This document shows, one piece after another, positions 19,050 through 37,933 of a DNA stretch of 64,000 nt. Every line of letters starts with the position of its first letter. Position 1 is the first letter of the stretch. The notes beneath the pieces were generated by a model. That model did not search any database. It saw only the letters and a list, made by a program, of their open reading frames with translations, and was not told the origin of the DNA. A program made the translations under genes and the position numbers. Source of the DNA: Hyphomicrobiales bacterium (GTDB lineage: Bacteria; Pseudomonadota; Alphaproteobacteria; Rhizobiales; Xanthobacteraceae); assembly GCA_017305455.1 (NCBI GenBank), contig JAFKKO010000119.1, positions 1-64,000 of the forward strand. The letters are read 5' to 3'.

Positions 19050-19609
19050 AGTCTCAGATTCCCCAGCGGGATCAATGACTAAACCGCCTGTCGCGATCCC
19101 CCTTTCGGTGCAATCCACGCCTTTGGTCCACCCGAGGGACTATCCTTGCGCAGGATTGCGCCTGCCCGATGGAAGGGCGTCGTTCCAGTCTTCCGTCGGA
19201 CAGTCCCCGTTGCCTCCGTCCACGGATCGGTCGCACCGCAATTATTCGCGTCGTTAGGGCGTCGTCCGTCTCCTAAACAAAACGCCGGACGCGATGGCGT
19301 TGGCTGGCGATCGAGAGACCGTTCGCAATGCTGCGCGAAAACCGGAGCGTAATGAGGGAGCAGATTGGACGCATCGTCATGTGGTTAGCTGGAGATGGCG
19401 AGTTTGCCGACGGCGTTCGGCGGACGAATTTACGCTATTCCAAATGACTATAGCGCTGCGCCGGATGACTGGTGCGTCAGATGGTCCTGCGATAGCCGGA
19501 AACTCTCATAAAAACATCGCCGCCGATTGACTCAAAACATGGCGTCGCTTAACGGAATATTCATACGTATATAGCGTAGCGGCAATGCCGCGTTTTTTGG
19601 GGGTGGTTG
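19050..19609. other. Long leader/intergenic region before the GLUG exoprotein
   Basis: 560 bp with no credible gene. The last 100 bp are AT-rich. A TTGACT hexamer at 19527-19532 could be a -35 element, but no good -10 follows at 16-18 bp. A GGGGGTGG purine run at 19599-19606 supplies the ribosome binding site for the exoprotein gene. No integrase remnant or direct repeat of the tRNA end was recognised. Confidence 0.45.
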
Positions 19610-22600
19610 ATGTCGCAGTCGCGTGGTGTGCGTGCCGGCCGTGAAGTGAACCGGGGCCGCGGTGGCCTTTTCCCATCGCGGGTATCGGCTTCCGCCCCAG
19701 GGCCAGTCGTTGAAATGTCGGCCGCGTCGGGTCGGGTTTTGAAACCACAGGCGCGAGCCCGCTCCTTCCATCCCTCGCGTCGTTACGGCCCGTTCGTGAC
19801 GATGACGGCGATGGCGGCACTGATGGTGCTGTCGCGTCCCGTCCTGGCAGGTCCGGTCGGCGGGACGGTTGTCGACGGCGCGGCCGCGATCTCGCAGGCC
19901 GGCACCGCCACCAACATCAATCAGCCGACCAACAAGGCGATCATCAACTGGCAGGGCTTCTCGGTCGGTGCGAACGAGAGCGTGAATTTCTACCAGCCCG
20001 GCGCCTCGTCGGTGACGCTCAACCGGGTGATCGGCAACGAGACCAGCGTCATCAACGGCGCCATCAACGCCAACGGCCAGGTGTTTATCGTCAACTCCGC
20101 CGGCGTGCTGTTCGGCAAGGGCTCGCAGGTCAATGTCGGCGGCCTGGTCGTCTCGACCCATGACATCTCCAACAGCGACTTCATGGCCGGCAACTATACG
20201 TTCTCGGGCACCTCGAACGCGGCGGTGATCAATCAAGGCCGGATCCGCGCGCACAGCGGAGGCTATGTCGCGCTGCTCGGCAAGACGGTCTCGAACGACG
20301 GCGTGATCTCTGCCCGGCTCGGCACCGTGGCGATGTCGGCCGGCGAGAGGCTGACGCTGAACTTCGAGGGCAACTCGCTGCTCGATGTCACCATCGACAA
20401 GGGCGCACTCAACGCGCTGGTCGAGAACAAGCGTGCGATCATCGCCGATGGTGGCCGTGTGATCCTCACTGCACGGGCGGCGGACCAGCTTCTTGCCGCG
20501 CAGGTCAACAACACCGGCATCGTGCAGGCCCGCACCGTCGCGGCGCTGAAGGGCGGATCAGTCGCCACCGGGCGCAAAGGCCGCAGAACGACTCCGAAGG
20601 TAAACCCGAATCCAAATCCTGAAGCTGATCCGGCCGACGTGCCGATGGCGCAGGGGAGTATCAAGATCTACGCCTATAGTGGCACCGCCAACATCGCCGG
20701 CACGCTCGATGCTTCCGCGCCCAAGGGCGGCGACGGCGGCTTCATCGAGACCAGCGGCGATGTCGTCAACGTCGCCGATTCGGCCTTCGTCACTACGAAG
20801 GCGATTGATGGCCGGACCGGCACCTGGCTGATCGATCCGAACGACTTCACCATTGCCGCGAGCGGCGGCAACATGACCGGCGCCGCAGTTGCCAGCGCGC
20901 TGGCTAACAACAATTACGAGATCAAGACCGCGACGATGGGAACGCCGGGCGGCAATGGCGACATCTTCGTCAATGATGCGATCACCTGGTCGAGTAACTA
21001 CACTCTGACGCTCACCGCAGAACGCAACGTCACCATTAACAAGGCGATCACCGCCGAAGGTCTCAGCGCCGGGCTCACGCTGAATGCCGGCAACAACATC
21101 AACATCAACAATGCGGTCAAGCTGAAGGGCGCAAACGCCGCGCTGGTGATGAACTATGGCGGCTACAACGGCACGACCGTGACGACGCCGCTGGCCGGCA
21201 CCGACTACATCATCCGCACCAAGGCGAGCTACGCCGGTGTCGCGGATGAGATGGGACCGATCTATGACAACAATGGCAAGCCCGTTCTTGACGGGGATGG
21301 CAATCAGTTGCTTGGCCCGGTCGCCAAGAAGGACACCAGCGGCGGCGTCTATGGCAGCATCACCCTTGCCCATGATGGCGCGAGCACGCTGAACGGCGCC
21401 GGCCTGACGATCAACGGGCAGACCTACACGCTGATCCACAACCTGGATCAATGGGCCACCACGGGCACGCGCACCGGCAACTACGCTTTGGCTGAAAGCA
21501 TCGACGCAACGGCGTGGAGCAGCGCCAATACCGGAAAAGCCTCGGTCGTCGCGACGTTCTCGGGCACGCTGGCAGGGCTGGGGCACGTCGTCAGCAATCT
21601 CACGCTGGCACCCACCGGGGGCGTTACAGGATTGATCGGCACTGCCGCCGCCAACGCGACCACCACGATCCGGGACATTGGCGTGACAAACCTTGATTAC
21701 TCCGGTGGAGGCAAAAGCGGCGGTTTGATCGGTGTGTCGTCGGGCGTGCTGAAGGTCAGCCAGGCATACGCGGCCGGGAGGATATCCAGCACGGGTGCTA
21801 CTGGCGGATTGATCGGCGATGCCGGTACGGGTACCAGTTCGGGGACGGTCAGCGACTCTTATGCATCGGTCAATATCGAAAGCGGAAGCACGGCAAGCGT
21901 CAAAGGCGGCTTGGTCGGACAGGTAAGAAACATCCAAATCATTCGTTCGCAAGCCACGGGAGACATGATTGGTGGAGGAGCCCAGATCGGTGGTCTGGTG
22001 GGCAATGTCATCAGTTCCACCGTGAGCCAGTCGTATGCGACGGGCGACGTTTCCACGAGCAATACCACGAGTAGCCAAGCCGGCGGTCTGATAGGGGTGA
22101 TAAGCAATGTGACGGCAGGAACGATCAACGCGGCAGTCAGCGACTCTTTCGCGACCGGCGATGTGACGGCTGCGACAAGGGTGGGCGGTCTGATCGGCTA
22201 TGTGAACATGACGGCCGCCAAACCGATGATCATCGACCGCACCTGGGCCAGCGGCAAGGTCACGGCAACTTATAGCGGCCTGACTATCGACGGAAAGGCT
22301 GGCGGCCTGATCGGCGAAGCGCTCTATGCCTATATCACGGATGCCCACGCGTCAGGCGATGTCGAACTTACCGGCAGCGGCGGAACATTCACCTATGCGG
22401 GGGGCCTGGTCGGCCGCCAGTTCGGTGGCTTCATCCAGGATTCCAGCGCAAGTGGCAATGTGACCGGGGGCAAGGCTGACAGCCTGGGAGGACTGGTCGG
22501 GAGCATGTCGGAAGGCAATATCACGAACTCGCATGCGTCCGGGAATGTCGCCTCTTATGGCCTGAACATTGGCGGATTGGCGGGTGGCTTTGGCGGTACC

Positions 22601-23335
22601 GGCCCGGTGAGCGTGACGGGGTCATCCGCCAGCGGATCGGTCACCGGCAATGCAGCCGTGGGCGGGCTGTTGGGTGGCTTCACTGGAGAGCAGGCGAGCG
22701 TCGTCAATTCCTCCGCCACCGGCAATGTCTCGGCTGTTCCAAGGCCCGATGGGTGGCGGCCTGCCTCCTCGTCAGCGGGCGGGCTCATTGGCCTCATGGG
22801 CGGCAACGGCGGAGATGTCGTCAACTCCACTGCGACGGGATCCGTCACGGGCATTGACGGGCCGGTCGGCCTGGTAGGGCAGCAGGTCAACGGCACCATC
22901 GATTCCCGCAGCACCTATACGGATGTCGCGGCGATTGCGGCGGCGGAGCGCGCGGCCTTCCGTGCCGACGCGGTGCGCACCGGCAGCACGGTTGCATCAA
23001 CGGGCGGCGATGTTGCGTCGTCGGGAGCGACGCCGCCGGCGACGGCCTCCTCGATCCGCGCCATGCAGCACTCGGCCAAGCTTGGCGAGGTTGATGACGG
23101 CCTCAAGCAGACCGAGCGGCACGCCAGGGACGACGACAGGCGTCACGAGCAGCGCCGCAAGGCCGCGATCGCCGCGGCCACACGCGAGACCAATGCGCCG
23201 CGCGCGCCGTCCTATCGCGGCACCATCCGCTCGATCGAGGTCGATGGCCAGCGTTTCGAACTGGAGCGCGACGACACGCCGAGTAGCGGTGGCAGCAACA
23301 GCGGTGCGCCGGCTTCAAGCGGAGGCGCGCAGTAA
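19610..23335 (+). CDS. Two-partner-secretion exoprotein (TpsA) with filamentous haemagglutinin N-terminus and GLUG repeats
   Basis: 1241 residues from ATG 19610, with a GGGGGTGG purine run just upstream. A basic leader of about 60 residues precedes a signal peptide core (TMTAMAALMVLSRPVLA), an extended arrangement common in TpsA proteins. The TPS secretion domain follows, with NWQGFSVGANESVNFYQP and INANGQVFIVNSAGVLFGKG (normally NPNG; here NSAG). The middle part is a predicted beta-helix. From about residue 690 to 1090 there are twelve GLUG-type units, each GGL[IVLA]G followed about 20 residues later by a [ST]-x-A-[TS]-G-x-[VI] strand. The charged C-terminus (RHARDDDRRHEQRR) lacks a recognisable toxin or anchor domain. 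Such proteins are secreted through a TpsB pore and act in adhesion or aggregation; no tpsB gene is in the window. Confidence 0.85.
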   Translation: MSQSRGVRAGREVNRGRGGLFPSRVSASAPGPVVEMSAASGRVLKPQARARSFHPSRRYGPFVTMTAMAALMVLSRPVLAGPVGGTVVDGAAAISQAGTATNINQPTNKAIINWQGFSVGANESVNFYQPGASSVTLNRVIGNETSVINGAINANGQVFIVNSAGVLFGKGSQVNVGGLVVSTHDISNSDFMAGNYTFSGTSNAAVINQGRIRAHSGGYVALLGKTVSNDGVISARLGTVAMSAGERLTLNFEGNSLLDVTIDKGALNALVENKRAIIADGGRVILTARAADQLLAAQVNNTGIVQARTVAALKGGSVATGRKGRRTTPKVNPNPNPEADPADVPMAQGSIKIYAYSGTANIAGTLDASAPKGGDGGFIETSGDVVNVADSAFVTTKAIDGRTGTWLIDPNDFTIAASGGNMTGAAVASALANNNYEIKTATMGTPGGNGDIFVNDAITWSSNYTLTLTAERNVTINKAITAEGLSAGLTLNAGNNININNAVKLKGANAALVMNYGGYNGTTVTTPLAGTDYIIRTKASYAGVADEMGPIYDNNGKPVLDGDGNQLLGPVAKKDTSGGVYGSITLAHDGASTLNGAGLTINGQTYTLIHNLDQWATTGTRTGNYALAESIDATAWSSANTGKASVVATFSGTLAGLGHVVSNLTLAPTGGVTGLIGTAAANATTTIRDIGVTNLDYSGGGKSGGLIGVSSGVLKVSQAYAAGRISSTGATGGLIGDAGTGTSSGTVSDSYASVNIESGSTASVKGGLVGQVRNIQIIRSQATGDMIGGGAQIGGLVGNVISSTVSQSYATGDVSTSNTTSSQAGGLIGVISNVTAGTINAAVSDSFATGDVTAATRVGGLIGYVNMTAAKPMIIDRTWASGKVTATYSGLTIDGKAGGLIGEALYAYITDAHASGDVELTGSGGTFTYAGGLVGRQFGGFIQDSSASGNVTGGKADSLGGLVGSMSEGNITNSHASGNVASYGLNIGGLAGGFGGTGPVSVTGSSASGSVTGNAAVGGLLGGFTGEQASVVNSSATGNVSAVPRPDGWRPASSSAGGLIGLMGGNGGDVVNSTATGSVTGIDGPVGLVGQQVNGTIDSRSTYTDVAAIAAAERAAFRADAVRTGSTVASTGGDVASSGATPPATASSIRAMQHSAKLGEVDDGLKQTERHARDDDRRHEQRRKAAIAAATRETNAPRAPSYRGTIRSIEVDGQRFELERDDTPSSGGSNSGAPASSGGAQ

Positions 23336-23476
23336 AGGGAGCGGAAAGCGCGATCGGTCCCGAACGAAACCGGCACCAGATCGCCGGGTTGTCGTCATGC
23401 GATCTCAAGGCCGCGAAGATCATGCCGGACGCGATCGGTCTTTTGTCTGCGACCGCAGAGTTTGCCGACGCGGGTC

Positions 23477-24460
23477 TCACGGAACCAGCACGGCGGCGCC
23501 CTGAAAGCGGCCGTTGCGCAGATCGGCAAGCGCTTCATTCGCCGATGCGAGCGGATAGACCGTGGTCGTGGTCTTCACGCCGGCGCGCGGCGCGATCTCA
23601 AGGAATTCCGTGGCGTCGCGGCGGGTGAGGTTGGCGACCGACACGATCTCGCGTTCTTCCGAGAGCAGAGCGTAAGGAAATTGCGGAATGTCGCTCATGT
23701 GGATGCCGCCGCAGACGACCCGTCCGCCCTTGCGCACGACCTTGAGCGCCAGCGGCACCAATGCGCCGACCGGCGCGAAGATGATCGCGGCATCGAGCGG
23801 CTCGGGCGGTGATTGCTCCGAACTGCCGACCCAGACGGCGCCGAGCGAGCGGGCAAGCTGCTGAGCCGCGGCATCGCCCGCGCGGGTGAAGGCATAGACC
23901 TCGCGGCCCTGCCAGCGGCAGACCTGCGCGAGAATATGAGCCGCCGCGCCGAAGCCATAAAGCCCGATTTTTCGCCCTTCGCCTGCGATGCGCAGCGCGC
24001 GCCAGCCGATCAGGCCGGCGCACATCAACGGCGCGGCGGCGACAGGATCATGAAAGCCGGTCAGCGGAAACGCGAAAGCCGCATCTGCCACCACATGGGT
24101 GGCGAAGCCGCCGTCGCGGGTGTAGCCGGTGAACTCCGGGTGATCGCAGAGGTTCTCTGCGCCGGATGCGCAATAAGGGCACGTCCCGCAGGTGTGGCCG
24201 AGCCAGGGGATTCCGACCCGCGTGCCAAGCGCGGGTGTCGTGACGCCGGGGCCGAGCGCATCGACGATGCCGACGATCTCGTGACCGGGAATGATCGGCC
24301 GCCCATGATGCGGCAGTTCGCCATCGACGACATGAAGATCGGTGCGGCAGACCGCGCAGGCTTCGATGCGCACGCGAATCTCGCCGTGCTGCGGCACCGG
24401 GTCGGGCCGGCGCTCGAACCGCAGCGGCTCGCCGGGCGCATGCAGAACCATCGCATCCAT
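23477..24460 (-). CDS. Zinc-dependent alcohol dehydrogenase
   Basis: 327-residue medium-chain dehydrogenase of the zinc-dependent alcohol dehydrogenase family. Catalytic zinc ligands are Cys38 (CAVCRTDLH), His60-Glu61 (PGHEIVG) and probably a later Cys; structural zinc is bound by Cys91, 94, 97 and 105 (CGTCPYCASGAENLC). The nucleotide-binding loop is GLYGFGAAAHILAQ. This subgroup oxidises or reduces simple alcohols/aldehydes with NAD(H) and is often found with stress and fermentation genes in proteobacteria. Four minus-strand genes (CBS-BON, eRF1-like, 58-residue protein, this one) run in sequence, and a FixK-type box precedes the first, so hypoxic induction is plausible. The 109-bp gap before this gene leaves room for a promoter of its own. 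Confidence 0.88.
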   Translation of the reverse strand: MDAMVLHAPGEPLRFERRPDPVPQHGEIRVRIEACAVCRTDLHVVDGELPHHGRPIIPGHEIVGIVDALGPGVTTPALGTRVGIPWLGHTCGTCPYCASGAENLCDHPEFTGYTRDGGFATHVVADAAFAFPLTGFHDPVAAAPLMCAGLIGWRALRIAGEGRKIGLYGFGAAAHILAQVCRWQGREVYAFTRAGDAAAQQLARSLGAVWVGSSEQSPPEPLDAAIIFAPVGALVPLALKVVRKGGRVVCGGIHMSDIPQFPYALLSEEREIVSVANLTRRDATEFLEIAPRAGVKTTTTVYPLASANEALADLRNGRFQGAAVLVP

Positions 24461-24568
24461 GATCGTCTTCTGTCTGTTGCAGGATGCTGTTGCGACAAGA
24501 AAGCAAGATGGGTCTGATCCGCCCCGATTGACAAGTCTTGTTGCGCAAGCAGGCCGGATCCGGAAAGC

Positions 24569-24745
24569 CTAGAGTTCGATCTTGTTGCTCCGCCATGGCC
24601 AGAAGGCCGCGACGATGCACAAGATAGCGACCAGACCCACGGCGACAAAGGTCTGCACCACATCGAAGTTGAGCGCATCGCGAGCGACGAAAAGCGCCGT
24701 GATCGGCGCCGCAAGAGCGAGCAGAAGACGGATGAGAAGAGACAT
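24569..24745 (-). CDS. 58-residue membrane protein of unknown function
   Basis: Short gene with ATG 24745, an AAGG ribosome binding site about 8 bp upstream and stop at 24569. The product starts MSLLIRLLLALAAPITALFV, continues ARDALNFDVVQTFVAVGLVA and ends ILCIVAAFWPWRSNKIEL. It has two hydrophobic segments (about residues 2-19 and 30-49) and a short basic C-terminus, so it should be a small inner-membrane hairpin protein. It lies 32 bp after the eRF1-like gene on the same strand and 108 bp before the dehydrogenase. Its family is unknown to me. Support is the good ribosome binding site, coherent membrane topology and fitting spacing. Confidence 0.65.
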   Translation of the reverse strand: MSLLIRLLLALAAPITALFVARDALNFDVVQTFVAVGLVAILCIVAAFWPWRSNKIEL

Positions 24746-24777
24746 AATAGGTGCCTTGTTGGGTTGCCGTTGTGTCG

Positions 24778-25176
24778 TCAGCGGGACGAAACGATCCGGG
24801 GCCGTTCAAAACCGAAATATCGTTGGGCGTAGTCGATCACTTCCTCGTCACTCGGATGATCGGAAGATCCTATCGCGACCACACGTTTGCGAAACTCGGC
24901 ATTGTTCTGTTGCAGGAAGTCGTAGAGAGCGTTTTTCTCGTTACCCGGCCCAAGGATCAGGATCCGGCCGGCGTCTTGCAGCGCAGTAGCGATCTCGCCC
25001 ATGAACTCTTCATCCTCGGTGGCGTGCCCGGCGCCGATCTCGTTTGCCTTGTGGTGGATATTCTCGCTTTCCGGACGCGAACGGATCACGATTTGGTCGT
25101 ATCCCGCCAGGTCGATATGAAAAATCCGTGCCCGGCGGTGGTCGACCCAGACCACAGCATGATGATGTGCGGACAT
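24778..25176 (-). CDS. eRF1/Pelota-like domain protein (bacterial 'translational machinery protein')
   Basis: 132 residues from ATG 25176. It opens with SAHHHAVVWVDHRRARIFHI and closes with ILILGPGNEKNALYDFLQQ and DHPSDEEVIDYAQRYF. The GPGxxK strand-turn and the overall layout resemble domain 3 of eRF1/Pelota release factors and the bacterial baeRF proteins; Bradyrhizobium relatives carry the informal name translational machinery protein. The catalytic GGQ domain of release factors is absent, so a role in ribosome binding or stress is possible but unproven. It starts 23 bp after the CBS-BON gene and is probably cotranscribed with it. Confidence 0.65.
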   Translation of the reverse strand: MSAHHHAVVWVDHRRARIFHIDLAGYDQIVIRSRPESENIHHKANEIGAGHATEDEEFMGEIATALQDAGRILILGPGNEKNALYDFLQQNNAEFRKRVVAIGSSDHPSDEEVIDYAQRYFGFERPRIVSSR

Positions 25177-25199
25177 GCGACAAACTCTTTGTATTGCGA

Positions 25200-25928
25200 T
25201 TAGCCTGTCTTCGACAGCTGCTCGTCTTCGGGTGAGGGGATGTAGAGACCCGACATCGCATCGACCCAGCACAGGTGGTCGTGCACCAGTCTGACGCCTT
25301 CGATGTTCTCGGCCGCGACAATCGTCGCCTGCCGGGATCGCTCATCGGCGATCACGCCGCTGAGATGCACGATGCCGTCGCGCACGATCACTTCGAGGTT
25401 GAGTGGACGCCAATCGGCCTTCTCGATCTCGCGAATGATCCGCTCGCGGATGCGGTCGTCGTCGGCGGTGGGATCTGGAATATCGCGCGCGAGGCTTGCC
25501 ACCGCTTGCAGCAGGTTGGACCGCGTCAGAATGCCGACCATGGCGTTGCCGTGCATCACCGGCAGACGCTTGACGTTTTTCTTCTCCATCAGCGCGACGG
25601 CGTCCTCCAGCGTGGCGTCCTCGGATATCGTCACGGGATCGGGCGTCATGACGTCACCCACCTTGCGTCCGTGCTCGCGGACGAAATCGGTGGCGGCCCC
25701 GCCGGGACCGATCAGGAAACTGAGCCAGCGGCCACGCTTTTTGGTGGTGCCGATTTCGCTGCGTCGGATAAAATCACCCTCCGACACGATGCCGACCAGC
25801 TTGCCCGCGTCATCGATCACGGGCAGGCCGCTGATATGCCGCCGCAGCATCAGGTTGGCGGCGTCGAGAATTGACGTTTCGGGAGTGACCGATATGGCCG
25901 GACGACTCATGATCTGATGGGCACGCAT
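25200..25928 (-). CDS. CBS-pair and BON domain protein
   Basis: 242 residues from ATG 25928, which has a strong GGAGGG site 8-9 bp upstream; the open frame extends upstream without homologous features. Two CBS motifs are clear (MSRPAISVTPETSILDAA to GIVSEGDFIRRSE, and MTPDPVTISEDATLEDAV to VGILTRSNLLQAV), forming a Bateman module that usually senses adenine nucleotides. The C-terminal part (IIREIEKADWRPLNLEVIV, GIVHLSGVIADERSRQA) is a BON domain, often a membrane- or ligand-associating module. Such proteins are frequent in hypoxia and stress regulons. A TTGAGCCACATCAA box lies 56 bp upstream of the start, at 25984-25997. Confidence 0.87.
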   Translation of the reverse strand: MRAHQIMSRPAISVTPETSILDAANLMLRRHISGLPVIDDAGKLVGIVSEGDFIRRSEIGTTKKRGRWLSFLIGPGGAATDFVREHGRKVGDVMTPDPVTISEDATLEDAVALMEKKNVKRLPVMHGNAMVGILTRSNLLQAVASLARDIPDPTADDDRIRERIIREIEKADWRPLNLEVIVRDGIVHLSGVIADERSRQATIVAAENIEGVRLVHDHLCWVDAMSGLYIPSPEDEQLSKTG

Positions 25929-25983
25929 GAGAAAATCCCTCCGTTGGATTTTTGAAGTCTGCATGCAGCACGTGGGTAGCCCG

Positions 25984-25997
25984 TTGAGCCACATCAA
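25984..25997 (-). promoter_or_regulatory. FixK/FNR-type box upstream of the CBS-BON gene
   Basis: TTGAGCCACATCAA fits the TTG-N8-CAA palindrome bound by FNR/FixK regulators (TTGAT-N4-ATCAA). If it acts as a class II site (centre at -41.5), transcription would start near 25949, giving a 21-nt leader that still contains the GGAGGG ribosome binding site. The -10 at that spacing would be CAGACT, a weak match. Regulation by FixK is inferred. Confidence 0.6.
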
Positions 25998-26040
25998 GTT
26001 CCGCCGGGAATTGTCAGCCGGGTCGGCCAGCCGCCGCGGT

Positions 26041-27615
26041 TCAGTCGGCGCGCTCGCGATGCCACTCCGCATTCGTCTTGCCGGTTTGGGAAAGGACGGA
26101 CCGGCTGCGCGCCAGCGTATCGTCCGGCGTTCCCGAGGCATCGACGAGGTTCCAGTCGAGCCCGGCAAGATCGTAGCTTTGCTGCTGCCGCGCGACGGCG
26201 GGCGTCGCATCGGATGCATCGCCACTTCGGCCGGCGATGCGCCTAATCCTAGTGTCGAGATCCGCAACCAGAAATATTCCGGCAAAGGGAACGTTCATCG
26301 ACCGGGCGATCTGCGCGATCGCCTGCCGCTCGTCCTCGCGCGCATAGACCGCATCCACGATCACCGAATGGCTCTGATGCAGAATGCGTTCGGCGCTGCG
26401 CGTCAGCGCCTGATAGACTGCGCTCGAATTTCCGGCCTGATAGGCGCTTTCCGGCAGGCGGTCGGTTTCCTCGACGCCGAACAGTTCCTTGCGGATTGTG
26501 TCGGAGCGCAGCACGATCGCGCCCGGAGGTGGCGCGATGCTGCCCGCGAGGCCGCGCGCCAGTACCGATTTTCCGGTGCCGGACAATCCGCCAATGGCGA
26601 CCAGCCGGGGCGGGGCAGGCGCAATCAAGCGGCTCGCCAGCTCGAAATAGCCGGTGGCCTTGCGCAGGATCGCGCCATCCCTGTCATCCGCCTGCGCAAG
26701 GCGGGCAAGAGTGACATTGGCGCGAATGGCCGCGCGTATCGACATCAACAGCGGCAGCAAGGCGAGAGCATCCGAATTGGCGGCGGGCGTTCGCGTGAGA
26801 TATCTGTTGAAGAGACTATTGGCCGCCGCCGCGGACCCGGCATGAATGAGATCCATCAGGACAAAAGCAAGATCGTAGAGCACGTCGATGGAGGCGATCT
26901 GTGCATCGAACTCGATGGCATCGAAGATCACCGGCTTGTCCTCGATCAGCACGATGTTCGCCAGATGCAGATCGCCGTGGCAGCGGCGAACGAACCCCTC
27001 TTTGCCGCGCTGTTCCAGCGAGGATCGCAATCCTGCCAGCGCGGCGCTGCTTTCCTGATCAAGACGATCGATCGCCCCCTTGGGAAACAGTCTGGCGGCG
27101 CGAAAGGCGGCCGTGTTTCCTGCAATGATCGCCGGAATTGACCGGAGCCATGGCTCGGTCGCGGCCACAGGCGCCGCTGCATGCGCGGCTGCAATCAGGT
27201 CGGCGATCTTCACCGCGAGTGCGTGGCTGACAGGGGCGCTTGCGGCGAGGTGGTCGAGAGTTTGCGTCTCGTCGAACCGCGCCATGTCAACCGCCCATTC
27301 GACCGGCTCGCCCACGCCGCCAATGGCAAGCGCGCCGTCGCCCTCGCGCGTGATCGCGACAACGCCGCGATAGATTTGCGGCGCAAACGGGCGATTGATG
27401 GCGATCTCCTGCTCACATGCCCCCTTGCGCCGCTCCAGCGTCGAATAGTCAAGGAACGGATATTTGACAGCTTGTTTGATTTTTAGAGCACGAGACCCTG
27501 CGAGAAAGACATGCGCGGCGTGGGTGTCGATGCGTGTGACGTGGTCCACACCATGGGTCGAGGGATTCGCAAGAAATGCGATCACGTCTTGCTGCATGTT
27601 GCGATCATCGCTCAT
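26041..27615 (-). CDS. Bifunctional aminoglycoside phosphotransferase-like / AAA kinase fusion
   Basis: 524 residues with two modules. Residues 1 to about 325 form an APH-type kinase domain with the Brenner catalytic motif CHGDLHLAN (His213, Asp215, Asn220) and the metal-binding Asp232 in FDAIEFD. Residues about 335-510 form a P-loop kinase with Walker A GLSGTGKS at 343-350 and a substrate-like segment RSDTIRKELFG. This fusion occurs in many proteobacteria, usually beside stress genes; its substrate is unknown and it is not known to confer drug resistance. An internal ATG 18 bp downstream (MQQDVIAF) is an alternative start. It is divergent from hsp20, and the shared 139-bp gap contains a FixK-type box. 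Confidence 0.85.
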   Translation of the reverse strand: MSDDRNMQQDVIAFLANPSTHGVDHVTRIDTHAAHVFLAGSRALKIKQAVKYPFLDYSTLERRKGACEQEIAINRPFAPQIYRGVVAITREGDGALAIGGVGEPVEWAVDMARFDETQTLDHLAASAPVSHALAVKIADLIAAAHAAAPVAATEPWLRSIPAIIAGNTAAFRAARLFPKGAIDRLDQESSAALAGLRSSLEQRGKEGFVRRCHGDLHLANIVLIEDKPVIFDAIEFDAQIASIDVLYDLAFVLMDLIHAGSAAAANSLFNRYLTRTPAANSDALALLPLLMSIRAAIRANVTLARLAQADDRDGAILRKATGYFELASRLIAPAPPRLVAIGGLSGTGKSVLARGLAGSIAPPPGAIVLRSDTIRKELFGVEETDRLPESAYQAGNSSAVYQALTRSAERILHQSHSVIVDAVYAREDERQAIAQIARSMNVPFAGIFLVADLDTRIRRIAGRSGDASDATPAVARQQQSYDLAGLDWNLVDASGTPDDTLARSRSVLSQTGKTNAEWHRERAD

Positions 27616-27679
27616 CTCGTACGATCTCTGGAACAGAGGAACACAGCTGACAAGGTTAGTTCAGGGAACCCTGCCAAGC

Positions 27680-27693
27680 TTGAGCCCAATCAA
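27680..27693. promoter_or_regulatory. FixK/FNR-type box between the kinase fusion and hsp20
   Basis: TTGAGCCCAATCAA fits TTGAT-N4-ATCAA with one mismatch. Rightwards, a TAGAAA hexamer at 27716-27721 stands about 29 bp from the box centre, the class II FNR/FixK spacing, predicting a start near 27728 for hsp20. Leftwards, TAACCT (27658-27653, minus strand) is at nearly the same distance, so the box could serve both divergent genes. The left edge also reads CTTGAG, close to a heat-shock -35. Confidence 0.65.
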
Positions 27694-27721
27694 TTTCTTT
27701 GCCACAGAGCGGGCCTAGAAA

Positions 27722-27754
27722 ATCCTCGTTGAAAACCTCAACGGAGGATATGCC
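27722..27754 (+). promoter_or_regulatory. Candidate RNA thermometer masking the hsp20 ribosome binding site
   Basis: The leader folds into a simple hairpin. ATCCTC (27722-27727) pairs with GAGGAT (27744-27749), and GTTG (27728-27731) pairs with CAAC (27739-27742), leaving G27743 bulged and a 7-nt loop. The 3' arm holds the GGAGG ribosome binding site of the small heat-shock gene, whose ATG is at 27755. Small heat-shock genes of rhizobia commonly carry ROSE-type thermometers with a bulged G next to the masked site. This one is shorter than a full ROSE element. Confidence 0.6.
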
Positions 27755-28222
27755 ATGAAGTCGCTTATCCCAGTCAATCAGGATCGTTCTCTTCTTCGCC
27801 GTGATCTCAATCCCTTCACGGCATTGCAGCAGGAAATCGACCGTCTGTTCGATGGCTTCACCCGGAACCTTGCCGGCGGCATGACGCAGGCGCTCGTTCC
27901 CAGCATGGATGTCAGCGAAACCGACAAGGAAATCGAGATCACGGCCGAGTTGCCGGGTCTCGAGGAGAAAGACGTGCAACTTAATGTTGCCGACAATCAC
28001 CTGACCATTCGCGGTGAGAAGAAGAATCTGCGTGAGGAGAAAGACAAGGACTATCGTCTTGTCGAACGAAGCTACGGGTCATTCTCGCGCACGATCGAGT
28101 TGCCGGCGGGAGTCGACGCCGATGCCATCAAGGCGACGATTTCGAAAGGTGTGCTGAAAGTCACCGTACCGAAACCGGCGCCGGCGCTCGCCAAGAAAAT
28201 CGAGGTCAAGACAGCAGCCTGA
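27755..28222 (+). CDS. Hsp20/alpha-crystallin family small heat-shock protein
   Basis: 155-residue cytoplasmic holdase chaperone. The N-terminal arm (RRDLNPFTALQQEIDRLFDGF) is followed by an alpha-crystallin domain at about residues 47-145 (VSETDKEIEITAELPG, DNHLTIRGEKK, YGSFSRTIELPAGVD, GVLKVTVPKP). The length and N-terminus fit class A bacterial Hsp20 proteins, which bind unfolding proteins during heat or other stress. The ribosome binding site GGAGG is 7 bp from ATG 27755 and is enclosed in a hairpin. A FixK-type box lies upstream and a strong terminator hairpin follows at 28236. The neighbours are stress and low-oxygen type genes. Confidence 0.93.
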   Translation: MKSLIPVNQDRSLLRRDLNPFTALQQEIDRLFDGFTRNLAGGMTQALVPSMDVSETDKEIEITAELPGLEEKDVQLNVADNHLTIRGEKKNLREEKDKDYRLVERSYGSFSRTIELPAGVDADAIKATISKGVLKVTVPKPAPALAKKIEVKTAA

Positions 28223-28235
28223 TCTCGATAAACTC

Positions 28236-28268
28236 CGCGCGCCGTGGTTTCGCGGCGCGCGTCTTTGT
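28236..28268 (+). terminator. Rho-independent terminator after hsp20
   Basis: The perfect 9-bp stem CGCGCGCCG/CGGCGCGCG with an 8-nt loop (28236-28261) is followed by TCTTTGTT. It begins 14 bp after the hsp20 stop codon and separates that gene from the Mla operon promoter. Confidence 0.75.
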
Positions 28269-28334
28269 TATGGCGTCGCGGCGGTCGGGTCCACTCGACC
28301 CGCTCCCAGCCCACGGCGTCCTTCCTCACGACGC

Positions 28335-28348
28335 TTGACGTAGGTCAA
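28335..28348 (+). promoter_or_regulatory. FixK/FNR-type box upstream of the Mla-type operon
   Basis: TTGACGTAGGTCAA fits TTG-N8-CAA with a fully symmetric TTGAC/GTCAA. A TTAAAT -10 hexamer at 28370-28375 lies about 29 bp from the centre, the class II activator spacing, giving a start near 28382 and a 22-nt leader to GTG 28405. Regulation by FixK or FNR is inferred. Confidence 0.6.
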
Positions 28349-28404
28349 CACGTTTCTCGCCGCCGCTCCTTAAATGATCGGATTGCGGCGCGAGGGACAG
28401 TTTC

Positions 28405-29541
28405 GTGGCTACTGAACCCGTTCTCGACATCGTCAACATGGAAGGCGGCACCGAACTGCGGCCCTCTGGCGCGTGGACAACTGCTCACTCCGAAACACTT
28501 GAATCGCTTTACCGTCACGCCGAGCCTCAAGTGAGTGACAAGGCGGTTCTGACGGTGGATATGACGCGCCTCCGCGAGATCGATACGCTCGGGGCGTGGC
28601 TGCTGGAAAAGCTCTCGCGCCGGGCACAGGCCGCGGGGCGGGTGTCCCGCATTGTCGGGATGTCCGAACGTTACGCCGGGCTGGTCGCGGAGGTAGGGCA
28701 GGTCAATCGTCACGCGCCGTCAGCGAAAGAAAGCGTCAATCCGGTCGTCGGGTTTCTTGACCGGATCGGCCGTGCCGCGTTGTCCGCCTTGCAGGATCTC
28801 GGTGTTTTTCTGCAGATGCTGGGCGCGCTCGGCATCGCGTTGCTGCGGGTGGCGCTGCACCCGCGCTCGCTACGGCTGACCTCGCTGGCTTATCAAATTC
28901 ACCGGATCGGCTGGCAGGCGATTCCGATCGTAGCCCTGATCACCTTTCTGATCGGCGCGATCATTGCGCAGCAGGGCATTTTCCATTTCCGCAAGTTCGG
29001 CGCAGATTCCTATGTCGTCGATATGGTCGGCATTCTGGTGCTGCGCGAGATCGGCGTCCTGATCGTGGCGATCATGGTCGCGGGCCGCTCCGGCAGCGCC
29101 TACACAGCCGAACTCGGTTCGATGAAGATGCGTGAGGAGATCGACGCGCTTTCGACCATGGGGCTCGATCCGACCGAGGTGCTGGTGCTGCCCCGCGTGG
29201 TGGCGCTGGTCTGTTCGCTGCCGATTCTGACGTTCATCGGCGCGATGTCGGCGCTGTATGGCGGTGGCCTTGTTGCCTGGCTTTACGGTGGCATGAGTCC
29301 GGCGATTTTCATCGCCCGTCTGCATGAAGCCGTGTCGGTGACGCATTTCGAGGTCGGCATGATCAAGGCGCCGTTCATGGCGCTGGTGATCGGCATCATC
29401 GCCTGCAGCGAGGGCCTGCGAGTGAAGGGCAGCGCGGAATCGCTTGGCCGGCAGACCACCACCTCCGTTGTCAAGTCGATCTTCGTCGTCATCGTCCTTG
29501 ACGGATTGTTCGCCGTGTTCTTCGCCTCGATCGGGATGTAG
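28405..29541 (+). CDS. MlaE-type ABC permease with N-terminal STAS-like domain
   Basis: 378 residues from GTG 28405 (AGGG ribosome binding site at 28393). Residues 1 to about 100 resemble a STAS/MlaB domain (LTVDMTRLREIDTLGAWLL, preceded by a GAWTTAHSETL strand-helix). Residues about 130-378 are an MlaE/YrbE permease with the family segments RIGWQAIPIVALITFLIGAI, ILVLREIGVL and AGRSGSAYTAELGSMKMREE and a final helix pair. In the Mla system the STAS protein MlaB regulates the ABC complex; here it is fused to the permease. It should form the inner-membrane core of a phospholipid or lipid transporter with the ATPase starting 2 bp downstream. Confidence 0.87.
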   Translation: MATEPVLDIVNMEGGTELRPSGAWTTAHSETLESLYRHAEPQVSDKAVLTVDMTRLREIDTLGAWLLEKLSRRAQAAGRVSRIVGMSERYAGLVAEVGQVNRHAPSAKESVNPVVGFLDRIGRAALSALQDLGVFLQMLGALGIALLRVALHPRSLRLTSLAYQIHRIGWQAIPIVALITFLIGAIIAQQGIFHFRKFGADSYVVDMVGILVLREIGVLIVAIMVAGRSGSAYTAELGSMKMREEIDALSTMGLDPTEVLVLPRVVALVCSLPILTFIGAMSALYGGGLVAWLYGGMSPAIFIARLHEAVSVTHFEVGMIKAPFMALVIGIIACSEGLRVKGSAESLGRQTTTSVVKSIFVVIVLDGLFAVFFASIGM

Positions 29542-29543
29542 AG

Positions 29544-30323
29544 ATGGCGGAAACGGACATCTCCCATGCGATCCGTGTCAGCGATCTTGTTGTCGGTTTC
29601 GGGCGACAGATCGTGCTTGATCATCTGTCGCTGGATGTGCGCAAGGGCGAGATTCTCGGCCTGGTCGGCGCATCGGGCGGCGGCAAGTCGGTGCTGATGC
29701 GTACCATCATCGGCCTGATCCCCAAACGCAGCGGGCGGATTGAAGTCATGGGTGTCGAGATCGGCACCACGCACGACAGCAAGACCCAGGCCGCTGCCGG
29801 TAAGTGGGGCATCATGTTTCAGCAGGGCGCGCTGTTCTCCTCGCTCACCGTTCGCCAGAACATCCAGTTTCCGATGCGCGAAAGCCTTGTGATGTCGCAG
29901 GAGTTGATGGATGAGATCGCCAACGCCAAGCTCGAAATGGTCGGCTTGTCGGTTAACGATGGCGACAAATTCCCCTCCCAGCTTTCCGGCGGCATGACCA
30001 AGCGCGTGGCGCTGGCGCGGGCGCTCGCGCTCGATCCGGCGATTGTATTTCTCGACGAGCCGACATCGGGGCTGGACCCGATCTCCGCCGGAGACTTCGA
30101 CGAATTGATCCGCACCTTGCAGCAAACGCTGGGGCTCACCGTATTCATGGTCACGCATGACCTCGCCAGTATCAAAACGGTGTGCGACCGCATCGCGGCC
30201 CTCGCCGAGGGCAGGATTGTTGCGCTCGGTTCGATGCAGGGGGTGCTGCGCTCCGAACATCCCTGGGTCCGGGCGTATTTCCACGGCAAGCGTTCGCAAA
30301 TGCTGCAACCAATGGAAGGCTAG
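29544..30323 (+). CDS. MlaF-type ABC transporter ATP-binding protein
   Basis: 259-residue ABC ATPase of the MlaF/Ttg2A type. Walker A is GASGGGKS at 42-49, the signature LSGGMTKRVALARAL, and Walker B IVFLDEPTSGLDP with downstream switch His in FMVTHDLAS. The M in place of Q in the signature (LSGGM) is usual for this family. It energises lipid movement by the MlaE permease, whose gene ends 2 bp upstream, and the MlaD-type gene begins 6 bp downstream. All three are surely one transcript. Confidence 0.9.
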   Translation: MAETDISHAIRVSDLVVGFGRQIVLDHLSLDVRKGEILGLVGASGGGKSVLMRTIIGLIPKRSGRIEVMGVEIGTTHDSKTQAAAGKWGIMFQQGALFSSLTVRQNIQFPMRESLVMSQELMDEIANAKLEMVGLSVNDGDKFPSQLSGGMTKRVALARALALDPAIVFLDEPTSGLDPISAGDFDELIRTLQQTLGLTVFMVTHDLASIKTVCDRIAALAEGRIVALGSMQGVLRSEHPWVRAYFHGKRSQMLQPMEG

Positions 30324-30329
30324 GCAATC

Positions 30330-31442
30330 ATGGAAACCCGCGCTCCATTCGTCATCGTGGGAGCCTTCATTCTCGCGGCCATCGCGGCGGTCTTCGGCTT
30401 TGTCTACTGGCTGAACAACACCGGCGGCCTCGGCGCGCGAACGTCCTACAACATCCAGTTCAGCGGCCCGGTGCCCGGCCTTCTGGTCGGCGCCGCTGTG
30501 CTGTTCAACGGCATTCGTGTCGGCGAGGTGACGAGTCTGGCGCTCGCCGCCGACAGTCCGCGCAAGGTCAACGCGGTGATTGCGGTCTTGCCGGATACCC
30601 CGGTGCGCGCCGACACCAAGGTCGGTTTGGATTTTCAAGGCCTGACGGGCGTGCCCGTCGTCGCGCTGGAGGGCGGCGCGCAGCTTGCGGCGTCCGGGCC
30701 GGTGCCAACCCTGATCGCGGAGCCCGGCGCCGGGCAGAGCATGACGCAGGCGGCGCGCGACGCGCTGCGGCGAGTGGATACGATCCTCGCGGACAATGCC
30801 GAACCGCTGCAAAGCACGATCGCCAATCTGAAGACATTCTCCGATGGATTGGCGCGCAACACCGGCAAGCTCGACAATATCGTTGCCGGTCTTGAGCGGA
30901 TGACCGGCGGCGGTCCTGCGGCGGCGCCGAAGATCGTTTATGATCTGACATTGCCCAAGCAGCGCGCCACGGCGCCGCGGCAACTCAAGGGCCAGCTTGT
31001 GCTGGCGGATCCGTCCGCCATTCTGATGTTCGACACCCAGCGCATTCTGGTGACGCCGCCGGGTGGCGATGCGTCGGCCTTTGCCGATGTTCAATGGGGT
31101 GACAGCATTCCCAAACTGGTGCAGGCGAAACTGCTGCAAAGCTTTGAGAACGACAACGTGACACCGTCTCCGGCCCGCGAGATCGATGGCATCGAGGCCG
31201 ACTATCGGTTGCTGGTCGAAATCCGCACGTTCCAGATCGCGCTTGGCGATCAGCCGCGCGCCGAGATCGGCTTGTCCGCGAAAATTCTCGGCAAGGACGG
31301 GCATGTCGTTGCCGCGCGCAGCTTCGAGGACAAGCGCGCGCTCGCCGAGAGCAATGGGCCGGCTGCGGTGAAGGCTTTCAGCGAGGCTTTCAGCACTGTG
31401 GCATCGAATCTTGTGGGATGGACCGGCGAGATTCTCAGATAG
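30330..31442 (+). CDS. MCE/MlaD protein fused to an ABC auxiliary (PqiC-like) domain
   Basis: 370 residues. An N-terminal membrane anchor (about residues 7-28, FVIVGAFILAAIAAVFGFVY) is followed by one MCE/MlaD domain at about 38-120 (NIQFSGPVPGLLVGAAVLFN, then GLTGVPVVALEGG) that should form a periplasmic hexameric ring binding lipid. A helical stretch to about 200 ends in a Gly/Pro-rich linker. Residues about 208-370 match the ABC-type transport auxiliary domain seen in the lipoprotein PqiC (YDLTLP, WGDSIPKLVQAKLLQSFEND, DYRLLVEIRTFQ, AFSEAFSTVASNLVGW). In most systems that domain is a separate outer-membrane lipoprotein; here it has no lipobox of its own and is tethered to the MCE subunit. 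Confidence 0.85.
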   Translation: METRAPFVIVGAFILAAIAAVFGFVYWLNNTGGLGARTSYNIQFSGPVPGLLVGAAVLFNGIRVGEVTSLALAADSPRKVNAVIAVLPDTPVRADTKVGLDFQGLTGVPVVALEGGAQLAASGPVPTLIAEPGAGQSMTQAARDALRRVDTILADNAEPLQSTIANLKTFSDGLARNTGKLDNIVAGLERMTGGGPAAAPKIVYDLTLPKQRATAPRQLKGQLVLADPSAILMFDTQRILVTPPGGDASAFADVQWGDSIPKLVQAKLLQSFENDNVTPSPAREIDGIEADYRLLVEIRTFQIALGDQPRAEIGLSAKILGKDGHVVAARSFEDKRALAESNGPAAVKAFSEAFSTVASNLVGWTGEILR

Positions 31443-31472
31443 CGCGTGCCGGTGGCAAGCTCTTGCCGAACG

Positions 31473-31931
31473 TCAGATATTTCGAGCCGGCGCCACCGAA
31501 GCGACGGTAATATCGATTTTCTGGGTTTCGGAACGGCCGTTGGTGTAGCTCACCACCACGGTGACGGCGTCGTTGCCGACGAAATTCGCCTTCGACCGAT
31601 AGATCGCGACAAAGGCGGGCACCTCCAGCGCCATGCAGTGCTTGTAGTTGGTCAGCGAAATCTTGGCGCGCTTGACGGTCGTGATCCCGTTCGCCGGCGG
31701 TGTCAGCAACCGGATCGAGGGCAGGGTCCCCGAACTGCAATCGGGCTGCACGTTGAGATAGACGCCGATGCGGATATCCTTGCCGGTCTGGCCTTTTGCC
31801 GTGCGATGCACGGTCTGATCCTGGGCAAAGCCGGCTGTCCCGCCCGACAGCATCACAAGCGCTGCCACACCCGTTTTCACAAACGAAAAGGTGTTCGGCT
31901 TGGCGATGCTGCAATAGGTGAAGCGAGACAT
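31473..31931 (-). CDS. Exported protein of unknown function
   Basis: 152 residues. An N-region of about 20 residues precedes a hydrophobic stretch VAALVMLSGGTAGFA, a probable signal peptide with cleavage after GFA. The mature part is short and mainly beta-stranded in appearance (IRIGVYLNVQPDCSSGTLPS, KRAKISLTNYKHCMALEVPA, AVTVVVSYTNGRSETQK), with two cysteines that could form a disulfide. I do not recognise a characterised family. It is convergent with the Mla-type operon (30 bp between stops) and sits alone between it and the haem genes. Confidence 0.6.
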   Translation of the reverse strand: MSRFTYCSIAKPNTFSFVKTGVAALVMLSGGTAGFAQDQTVHRTAKGQTGKDIRIGVYLNVQPDCSSGTLPSIRLLTPPANGITTVKRAKISLTNYKHCMALEVPAFVAIYRSKANFVGNDAVTVVVSYTNGRSETQKIDITVASVAPARNI

Positions 31932-32088
31932 GGGGGTACCGGACTAGGCTTACCGCGACCACAGTCTGTGCCGCCGAGCGGCAGGCGCGCGATCGTCGGC
32001 CTGCGCGCACTATAATCTTGGTTCGATTGTAAATCCTAGGCGGGAAACGGCGCTGCGGCACACTGCCCACAGGTGTCATGGCCGGGCG

Positions 32089-32895
32089 TCAGTCGATATC
32101 CACCGGATGCATTCTCTGGGGTAGCACGAACGGGTAACCCTCGTCGTGGCCGACGGCGGTGCGGACCCTGAACACGGCGTGGATCAGTTCGGCCGTGATG
32201 GTCTCGACCGTTCGGCCGTCGGCATGGACCCTGCCGTGGTTGAGAACGATGATGCGGTCGGCGAAGCGGACCGCAAGGTTGAGGTCATGCAGAACGGCGA
32301 TGACGGCGAATCCGGAGCGGGCGCGGCGCTTGGCGATTTCCAGCAGGCCGACCTGGTGGCGCAGGTCGAGGCTCGATGTCGGCTCGTCCAGCAGCAGCAC
32401 GCCCGGCCCGCAGGCGGCCTCGCCGCAGGCAAGCTGCACCAGCACGCGGGCGAAATGCGCGCGCTGCTGTTCGCCGCCGGATAAGGTCGGCAATTCGCGA
32501 TGGCGCAGCGCGCCGAGGCCGAGCTCCTCGATGGCGGCATCGACAAGCGGCTGTGTGGCGGCGCGGGTCTGTTCGCCCGCGCCCATCGTCACGATTTCTT
32601 CGACCCGGAACGGGAAGGTCACATTGACGTGCTGCGAAAGCATCGCGCGGTGTCGGGACAGTTCACGAGGCGAGAACTGCTGCAGGTTGCGCCCCTTCAG
32701 CAGCAGATGGCCTTCGCTGCACGATTGATCGCCGGAGAGAACCCGGAGCAGCGTAGATTTGCCCGCGCCATTGGGGCCGACGATGGCCACGGTCTCGCCG
32801 CCGCGAAAATCGAGATCGACCCCGCTCAGCAGCGTGGCCTGCCGGATTTGGACCGAAGCCGATGCCACTGTCAGCATGTTCACGGCTGCACTCAT
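32089..32895 (-). CDS. hmuV: Haem ABC transporter ATP-binding protein HmuV
   Basis: 268-residue ABC ATPase of the FecE/HmuV type. Walker A is GPNGAGKST at about residues 39-47, the signature LSGGEQQRAHFARVL, and Walker B GVLLLDEPTSSLDLRHQ with switch His in AVLHDLNLA. It drives haem import through HmuU at the inner membrane. The gene starts 2 bp after the hmuU stop, at the end of the hmuP-T-U-V run. The extra CGEAACGPG insertion before Walker B is a feature of haem-specific members of this family. Confidence 0.92.
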   Translation of the reverse strand: MSAAVNMLTVASASVQIRQATLLSGVDLDFRGGETVAIVGPNGAGKSTLLRVLSGDQSCSEGHLLLKGRNLQQFSPRELSRHRAMLSQHVNVTFPFRVEEIVTMGAGEQTRAATQPLVDAAIEELGLGALRHRELPTLSGGEQQRAHFARVLVQLACGEAACGPGVLLLDEPTSSLDLRHQVGLLEIAKRRARSGFAVIAVLHDLNLAVRFADRIIVLNHGRVHADGRTVETITAELIHAVFRVRTAVGHDEGYPFVLPQRMHPVDID

Positions 32896-32897
32896 GG

Positions 32898-33989
32898 TCA
32901 GATGCCCAGACCGCGCTGCCGCAGCAGCATATAGAGAAAGAACGGCGCGCCGACGGTCGCCGTCAGAATGCCGATCGGAACTTCTGCGGGGGCGGCCAGC
33001 ACGCGGGCGAGCGTGTCGGCGCCGATCAGGAGAATTGCGCCGAGGAAGGCCGAGGCCGGCAGCAGCAGCCGGTGGCCCGGTCCGATCATCAGCCGCAGCA
33101 GATGCGGCACCACGATGCCGACGAAGCCGATGACGCCGCAGATCGACACCGCGGCTCCCGTCATCGCCGAAACCATGACAATGGAGATTTTCTTCAGCCG
33201 CTCGACATTGACGCCTGAATGGAAGGCTTCGGCTTCGCCGAGCGCGAGGACGTCGAGTCCGCGCGCGACCAGCGGGATGGCGAGCAGCGATACGAGCGCG
33301 ATCGGCGCAATTGACAGACCCTTGGTCCAGGTTGCGCCGCTGACGGAGCCGAGCAGCCAGAATGTGATGTCACGCAACTGTCGATCGTCCGCCATGAATA
33401 CCAGAAGGCCGATGCCGGCGTTCGCCAGCGCTGCGATCGCAAGTCCGGCCAGCAGAAACATCGCAACGGAGGTTCGACCGTCACGGCTGGCGATCCTGTA
33501 GAGGAGCATGGTGGTCAGCAGCGAGCCGGCGAAGGCGAACAACGGCAGCATCTGGCCCTGAAGGAATTGCAGGTGAACGCCCCAGGCGCTGTCGGACAGC
33601 ACGATGGCGACTGCGGCGGCGAATGCGCCGCCGCTGGAGACGCCGACAAGCGCCGGGTCCGCGAGCGGATTGCGGAACAGGCCCTGCATGATGGTGCCGG
33701 ACACCGCCAGCAATGCGCCGATCATGGCGGCCACCGCGATGCGCGGAATCCGGATCGACCACAGCACGAGCTGGTCGCGCGCCAGCATGCCGCTGACATC
33801 GTTTCCAAGACCAAGGGCGGCTACCAGCCGTTGCAGAGGAATGCCGGCCGCGCCGATCGTCATCGCCAGCAGGGCCGCGAGGACCAGGCTGCACAGCAGA
33901 ACGGAGAAAACGAGCAGGGACGAGGGCCGCAAATGCGGACGGGGAAGCGCGCGCGGGATCGGCGGCCCATTTGACGTGGTGTCGGTCAA
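32898..33989 (-). CDS. hmuU: Haem ABC transporter permease HmuU
   Basis: FecCD-family permease with about nine or ten transmembrane helices (SLLVFSVLLCSLVLAALLAM onward) and the family stretches RIPRIAVAAMIGALLAVSG, MQGLFRNPLADPALVGVSSG and GFVGIVVPHLLRL. No ATG lies before the first helix. The frame is open back to a TTG at 34025. I favour TTG 33989 (LTDTTSNG), which overlaps the hmuT stop codon in the form TTGA and would be translationally coupled; this gives 363 residues. The function, moving haem from HmuT into the cytoplasm, follows from the family and the operon. Confidence 0.88.
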   Translation of the reverse strand: MTDTTSNGPPIPRALPRPHLRPSSLLVFSVLLCSLVLAALLAMTIGAAGIPLQRLVAALGLGNDVSGMLARDQLVLWSIRIPRIAVAAMIGALLAVSGTIMQGLFRNPLADPALVGVSSGGAFAAAVAIVLSDSAWGVHLQFLQGQMLPLFAFAGSLLTTMLLYRIASRDGRTSVAMFLLAGLAIAALANAGIGLLVFMADDRQLRDITFWLLGSVSGATWTKGLSIAPIALVSLLAIPLVARGLDVLALGEAEAFHSGVNVERLKKISIVMVSAMTGAAVSICGVIGFVGIVVPHLLRLMIGPGHRLLLPASAFLGAILLIGADTLARVLAAPAEVPIGILTATVGAPFFLYMLLRQRGLGI

Positions 33990-34951: not shown

Positions 34952-34969
34952 TGCGCTCTATAATACTGT

Positions 34970-37805: not shown

Positions 37806-37840
37806 GCCGCACATATTGACATCCTCGATCGATCGGACGA

Positions 37841-37865
37841 GCCGCGCAGGATTTCTCTGCGCGGC
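37841..37865 (+). terminator. Hairpin between hmuR and the haem oxygenase gene
   Basis: Perfect 9-bp stem GCCGCGCAG/CTGCGCGGC with a 7-nt loop, 36 bp after the hmuR stop. No T tract follows, so it may be a partial terminator or a barrier to 3' decay that sets different levels of receptor and downstream enzymes. Confidence 0.5.
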
Positions 37866-37933
37866 GTCGTGCGTCTGGAAATATCCTGTTTTATCGGGCA
37901 GGCTGCCCATCAAGACCGCAAGGGAGAGAAGAA

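Follow-up and report, generated by a model that had tools for sequence, protein, structure and literature searches.

Three putative FixK/FNR boxes in a compact, candidate low-oxygen gene block of a Hyphomicrobiales bacterium

A 64,000-nucleotide stretch of DNA from a Hyphomicrobiales bacterium of the family Xanthobacteraceae (contig JAFKKO010000119.1 of assembly GCA_017305455.1, positions 1 to 64,000; referred to here as the window) contains three 14-bp palindromes of the form TTGA-N6-TCAA within 2.4 kb. They stand in the gaps of a compact block of genes for an alcohol dehydrogenase (ADH), a small protein, an eRF1-like protein, a CBS-BON protein, an APH-AAA protein, Hsp20 and an Mla-type transporter. 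We put the probability at roughly 0.9 that these boxes belong to the low-oxygen FixLJ-FixK cascade or are read by an FNR-type protein that shares the word. The initial annotation of this DNA had proposed the same FixK/FNR reading, and it gained support because the word is enriched across the genome, the spacing is that of class II activation, the boxes are conserved upstream of orthologous genes and absent upstream of a paralogue, genes for both regulators are present, and FixK2 dependence has been published for corresponding products. The boxes are as follows.

25984..25997: box 1 (TTGATGTGGCTCAA as read on the minus strand), putative site by motif, its centre 62 bp 5' of the CBS-BON start
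27680..27693: box 2, candidate site and lone box in the divergent gap between APH-AAA and hsp20, its centre 71 bp from the APH-AAA start and 68 bp from the hsp20 start
28335..28348: box 3, putative site by motif, its centre 63 bp 5' of the mlaE GTG codon

All three 14-mers were found exactly where the initial annotation had placed them and are confirmed as real features of the window. They are the only matches to TTGA-N6-TCAA in the 64 kb, against 0.46 expected, and none of 100 shuffles reached three or more. All three are intergenic by our gene calls, which came from a simple codon-score caller trained on 31 hand-picked window genes, so that some of the genomic sites scored as intergenic may sit in missed genes. 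Gaps make up 7,600 of the 64,000 bases (about 12%), and the probability that three of three strict sites land in them is about 0.002. The called mlaE start at 28531 is an internal codon, and box 3 also precedes the GTG at 28405. The looser word TTG-N8-CAA gave no signal in the window (12 matches versus 9.85 expected, with 30 of 100 shuffles reaching 12) and was therefore not taken as evidence. The claim that no gap other than these three holds a box stands for the strict word and fails for the looser FixK2 consensus given in PMC9104804, TTG(A/C)-N6-(T/G)CAA, which boxes 1 to 3 satisfy and which also fits TTGCCTCCTCGCAA at 10390-10403. That sequence, the sole further gap match and possibly a chance one, lies 267 bp before a gene at 9107-10129 that looks dehydrogenase-like by eye. 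The scoring proposed by the initial annotation was also carried out, and its matrix was derived from the genome's remaining 39 intergenic sites. The boxes scored 18.8, 18.1 and 16.1, and the next best word in the window scored 9.2. Among 40 genomic sites they rank 22, 26 and 34 by this matrix, making them ordinary sites of the middle to lower range.

Across the draft genome (3.71 Mb, 151 contigs), TTGA-N6-TCAA occurs 63 times and the reversed word 9 times, and 42 of the 63 sites lie outside called genes, to be compared with an intergenic share of about 12% in the window. Three such sites inside 2.4 kb are expected 0.05 times per genome. Family searches with nine box-preceded genes beyond the window indicate what else the word precedes, several classic low-oxygen genes included: ccoN and a 5-aminolevulinate synthase gene (both over the NCBIfam cut-off), NnrS, PhaC and Usp genes (by Pfam), a multicopper oxidase gene, and two genes that are cut by the end of the locus and score below cut-off, one for a trehalose-phosphate synthase and one for a NarK-like transporter. 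The gene for the FNR-type protein is itself preceded by a box, 144 bp 5' of its called start.

The distance from the boxes to candidate -10 elements is also informative. Over 55 offsets and 39 box-gene pairs, four of them from the window, the mean -10 score is maximal at 32 bp from the box centre, which matches the class II position; the -10 matrix was our own, with weights from consensus frequencies. The initial annotation had noted -10-like hexamers after boxes 2 and 3 in class II geometry at about 29 bp. The hexamers and the geometry held up, and the distances had to be corrected to 32 bp for TAGAAA and 31 bp for TTAAAT. The promoter features near the boxes are the following.

25956..25961, minus strand: weak -10-like CAGACT (score 1.8), 32 bp away from the box 1 centre; the hexamer at 40 bp scores higher
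27653..27658, minus strand: -10-like TAACCT (score 3.9) on the APH-AAA side, 31 bp away from the box 2 centre
27716..27721, plus strand: -10-like TAGAAA (score 4.0) on the hsp20 side, 32 bp away from the box 2 centre
28236..28261, plus strand: terminator-like hairpin of 11 pairs, 3' of hsp20
28370..28375, plus strand: -10-like TTAAAT ahead of the Mla-type operon, 31 bp away from the box 3 centre; the same hexamer occurs in the Afipia sp. 64-13 locus described below

The hairpin after hsp20 agrees with box 3 serving as the promoter region of the Mla-type operon, though terminator-like hairpins in the region are no commoner than in shuffles (7 versus 6.3). A sigma-70 scan of 23200-32000 was uninformative, with 2 matches versus 1.8 in shuffles.

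Conservation was examined in 119 genomes drawn from the family; since these are related, the counts lack independence. Each search contributed its best 30 loci, except that for Hsp20, where the 19 loci (in 18 genomes) that passed E 1e-40 were used; the strict box was sought within 350 bp upstream, and the reversed control used the relaxed pattern. The box was found at 26 of 30 MlaE loci (27 if L082, at a contig end, is counted), 19 of 30 CBS-BON loci (18 with a box 60 to 75 bp upstream), 16 of 19 Hsp20 loci and 18 of 30 APH-AAA loci, and the reversed control at 2, 1, 1 and 0, respectively. Across genomes, the six core bases of the box vary and the outer bases stay. The strongest control is a second MlaE paralogue, about 57% identical, in which none of 20 upstream regions has a box; this set was picked by hand and consists of 19 of the 21 second copies in the best-30 genomes (those of G105 and G092 were left out) plus that of G107. 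The window's own genome carries such a second copy (C41:1161-2279, 57% identical), also without a box upstream. By these counts, which make the orthologue comparison that the initial annotation had called for, the boxes are well conserved in the family.

Individual relatives show how the arrangement changes. Among 13 loci found, the nearest named relative is the metagenome-derived Afipia sp. 64-13 (L019; APH-AAA identity, 85%), which suggests that the window comes from an Afipia-like organism. L019 retains the entire ADH-to-MlaD run together with the three boxes, boxes 1 (at 7616) and 2 being identical and box 3 differing by one base. The gaps around the boxes are 70 to 83% identical there, which makes this near relative weak evidence when taken by itself; the wider sample above is the stronger. 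Afipia sp. OHSU_II-C1 has its Mla genes and APH-AAA in divergent orientation with one box between them, and Hsp20 and CBS-BON are not nearby. At the other 11 of the 13 loci there is mostly no box just before APH-AAA, L024 being the exception. Four further genomes have ADH between hsp20 and APH-AAA with a box at its head, and in four relatives (L239, L245, L246 and L248) the eRF1-like gene is divergent to MlaE, the gap and its box being common to both.

The regulators that would read these sites are encoded in the same genome. At E 1e-3, three proteins matched PF00325, namely FixK, an FNR-type protein and a third, L018; the search covered only those CRP/FNR proteins that this short model picks up. 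FixK is present as the C-terminal 123 residues (L017; contig C91, complement 1435-1806), cut by the contig end, and its best Protein Data Bank (PDB) match is FixK2, 4i2o, at 1.2e-57. The closest relative (G106) has a complete FixK (L207, 1162-1872) that is identical over the shared stretch, with FixJ (over cut-off) encoded two genes upstream; our own contig ends inside fixK. The FNR-type protein (L016) has N-terminal cysteines by eye, and its best NCBIfam match is FnrL at 2.6e-45, below cut-off. Of the 24 family genomes in which a FixK reaches E 1e-45, 19 have fixK no more than 10 kb from a CBS-BON gene and 13 have it no more than 20 kb from MlaE. These distances come from hand-chosen rows including second CBS-BON copies, and further cases may be hidden by draft contigs. 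Block and fixK lie on separate contigs in our genome (C97 and C91) and in the closest relative (C1 and C9). The block is usually near fixK in the family and unlinked in the window's lineage. The same two genomes have a threonine at the residue aligned to Cys183 of FixK2. Over 30 fetched FixK-like proteins, five of them from distant loci (57% identity or less), that position holds Cys in 21, Pro in 5 and Ser in 2. The parts of PMC9104804 used here describe Cys183 as the oxidation-sensitive position and a Ser variant as active and insensitive to oxidation, and by analogy a Thr may behave like the Ser variant.

Several observations weigh against the FixK/FNR reading. Given the genome's own density of the word, three sites in a 64-kb window are not rare (P = 0.10), and the 21 of 63 genomic sites within called genes, together with the 9 reversed-control sites, indicate that some sites are chance matches. 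For box 1, the hexamer at class II spacing is weak. The strict box is missing within 350 bp at 4 of 30 MlaE, 11 of 30 CBS-BON, 12 of 30 APH-AAA and 3 of 19 Hsp20 loci; L082, one of the four MlaE loci scored boxless, does carry a box, and four APH-AAA loci without a near box have one about 1.1 kb upstream, ahead of a dehydrogenase gene. The eRF1-like gene has its own strict box at 9 of 30 loci (reversed control, 2) and ADH at 5 of 30 (control, 1), the latter count leaving out the four genomes with ADH next to a box between hsp20 and APH-AAA. With so few boxes of their own, these two genes would mostly ride on their neighbors or not be members everywhere. Finally, in the available part of PMC6515984, the Mla genes of Bradyrhizobium diazoefficiens lack the last-column '+' sign that we assume to mark FixK2 targets.

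The explanation that comes closest to competing is that the FNR-type (FnrL/AadR-like) iron-sulfur protein activates at the boxes and FixK plays a minor part. The word itself does not separate FixK from FNR; indeed, the relevant passages of PMC2908626 describe the sites of FNR, FixK and DNR as closely similar. The gene for an FNR-type protein with N-terminal cysteines is present and has a box of its own, and 8 of the best 30 MlaE loci come from genomes where no FixK reaches E 1e-45, 3 of these 8 with a strict box within 170 bp. Against this stand the distribution of the best 30 MlaE loci, found in 22 of the 24 genomes with FixK versus 8 of the 95 others (hand tally), the proximity of fixK to CBS-BON in 19 of 24, and the FixK2 dependence of corresponding products in PMC9104804. 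On balance, we consider a leading role for the FNR-type protein unlikely.

Two further explanations carry much less weight. A nitric oxide-responsive protein of the NnrR/DNR type might read the boxes, with the block forming part of denitrification, and the genomic boxes before NnrS, the multicopper oxidase gene and the NarK-like transporter would suit that proposal. However, the PF00325 search, which covers CRP/FNR proteins matching that short model at E 1e-3, gave the three proteins named above, NnrR sites are less FNR-like according to the part of PMC2908626 used here, and the block contains no known denitrification gene, all of which makes this explanation very improbable. Still less credible is that the boxes are chance palindromes. 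The genomic density given above would allow for three in a window, but all three lie in gaps, and the box is kept with a drifting core at up to 26 of 30 orthologous loci, versus none of 20 for the paralogue and at most 2 of 30 for the reversed relaxed control. A chance origin was rejected on the window shuffles, the genome-wide excess, the conservation and the paralogue control.

Under the FixLJ-FixK reading, we infer the following sequence of events. At low oxygen, FixLJ would raise FixK, which would be made and active, and a FixK dimer would bind each palindrome some 41.5 bp upstream of the start of transcription, recruiting RNA polymerase by class II activation. Box 1 would drive CBS-BON and then, by read-through, the eRF1-like, small-protein and ADH genes. 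Box 2 would drive hsp20 and probably APH-AAA; since it lies nearly midway between the two starts, one dimer could serve both directions. Box 3 would drive the mlaEFD-type operon. With no box of its own in the window, ADH would need transcription to run through from the CBS-BON promoter, and it is the weakest member of the proposed regulon. The products, comprising a chaperone, a CBS protein, a kinase, a protein resembling a ribosome factor and lipid transport, would fit a cell that is slowing under low oxygen. The genes of the block are given below.

23477..24460, minus strand: zinc-binding alcohol dehydrogenase (ADH), TIGR02822 over cut-off
24569..24745, minus strand: 58-residue protein that looks hydrophobic by eye and matches no Pfam family
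24778..25179, minus strand: eRF1/pelota-like protein of 133 residues, central-domain match
25200..25928, minus strand: CBS-BON protein, two CBS domains and a BON domain
26041..27615, minus strand: APH-AAA protein, APH domain and AAA_33 P-loop kinase
27755..28222, plus strand: Hsp20 small heat-shock protein
28405..29541, plus strand: MlaE-type permease with STAS domain
29544..30323, plus strand: MlaF-type ATPase (MlaF model below cut-off)
30330..31442, plus strand: MlaD plus ABC_trans_aux protein

The eRF1-like protein matched TIGR00111 at 4.3e-5 and baeRF_family10 at 0.0087, both below cut-off, and the pelota structure 3oby at 3.2e-4 by sequence and 1.3e-4 by profile. Solved-structure searches with the APH-AAA, CBS-BON and Hsp20 proteins gave general family matches only. 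In-frame stops are reported in some APH-AAA relatives; in the four inspected, they fall at about codons 500 to 524, near the natural end. On the left of the block, a gene at 19607-23335 (plus strand) encodes a large protein with a TPS secretion domain and GLUG motif and a filamentous-haemagglutinin-like N terminus. On the right, 32089-38804 contains genes for an ABC ATPase, a FecCD permease, a periplasmic binding protein, a TonB receptor, ABM and ChuX/HutX; this region adjoining the block is likely a haem uptake locus.

These results extend a well-studied symbiosis regulon to a small-genome relative of Afipia. They also suggest that one of the two Mla-type lipid transporters in the family has conserved low-oxygen control and its sister does not. 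The linkage of fixK to the block and the threonine in FixK give testable predictions on low-oxygen wiring in lineages outside nodules, and these two features and the paralogue-specific control of a lipid transporter are the parts of specialist interest. A broader proposal, which we offer tentatively and regard as doubtful, is that the block serves low-oxygen quiescence as a module that can be reused, made up of Hsp20, a CBS sensor, the APH-AAA kinase, a single-domain eRF1-like ribosome factor, a dehydrogenase and a dedicated Mla paralogue, usually placed near fixK in the family, reshuffled with its boxes kept and similar in gene content to the mycobacterial hypoxia regulon. In the Afipia lineage, where the module would be unlinked and FixK has no redox cysteine, it should then remain switched on when oxidative stress coincides with low oxygen.

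The block can be set beside several known systems. In gene content, compared here by product and not by sequence, it presumably resembles the hypoxia regulon of mycobacteria. Passages of PMC10901736 place Balon genes near Hsp20 and hypoxia genes, and in the window, too, the gene for an eRF1/pelota-like protein has Hsp20 and CBS genes close by, in a putative low-oxygen setting. However, the window protein has 133 residues and the pelota central domain only, unlike the multi-domain Balon type, and its PDB sequence matches include no Balon chain, the presence of Balon chains in that PDB copy not having been checked. The FnrL regulon of Rhodobacter sphaeroides, with hemA and cco as targets in the excerpts of PMC2908626, has the TTGA-N6-TCAA word in common with the window, but Table 1 of that paper puts Hsp20 and CBS under FixK and not under FNR. 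The available portion of the PMC4999443 main text makes no mention of Hsp20, heat shock or CBS.

The closest likenesses are to FixK regulons. For the Bradyrhizobiaceae, the sections of PMC2908626 used here predict a core FixK regulon, of which Nitrobacter, Bradyrhizobium and Rhodopseudomonas give the clearest definition. Its predicted targets include Hsp20, a CBS-domain protein, a kinase, a Zn alcohol dehydrogenase and parts of ABC transporters. In the window, by product (Pfam/NCBIfam), boxes stand directly before the Hsp20, CBS and kinase genes, with ADH as a downstream gene. The ABC transporter entries may correspond to the Mla-type genes, and Afipia is not named in those sections. In B. diazoefficiens, which has the 14-bp box in common with the window, Table 2 of PMC9104804 lists boxed genes with decreased expression in the fixK2 deletion: hspC2, an Hsp20 gene (box TTGAGCAAAATCAA, -111.5-fold); blr6074, a CBS gene (box TTGAGCTGCATCAA, -90.9-fold); and bll4412, a translational machinery protein gene (box TTGACCTGCGTCAA, -20.7). 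Precisely the blr6074 box occurs in one genome of our sample (G064, L110). The MCE, ATPase and MlaE genes bll6063-6065 are raised in microoxia by 10.5, 4.6 and 6.7 in the part of PMC6515984 consulted, if the column is taken as transcript change. The window differs from B. diazoefficiens in that its genes, compared by product and not by gene-by-gene orthology, form one compact block with a single box for hsp20 and APH-AAA, and in that fixK lies on another contig and encodes Thr instead of Cys183. A regulon of this kind has already been described, and what is new here is its host and its compact arrangement.

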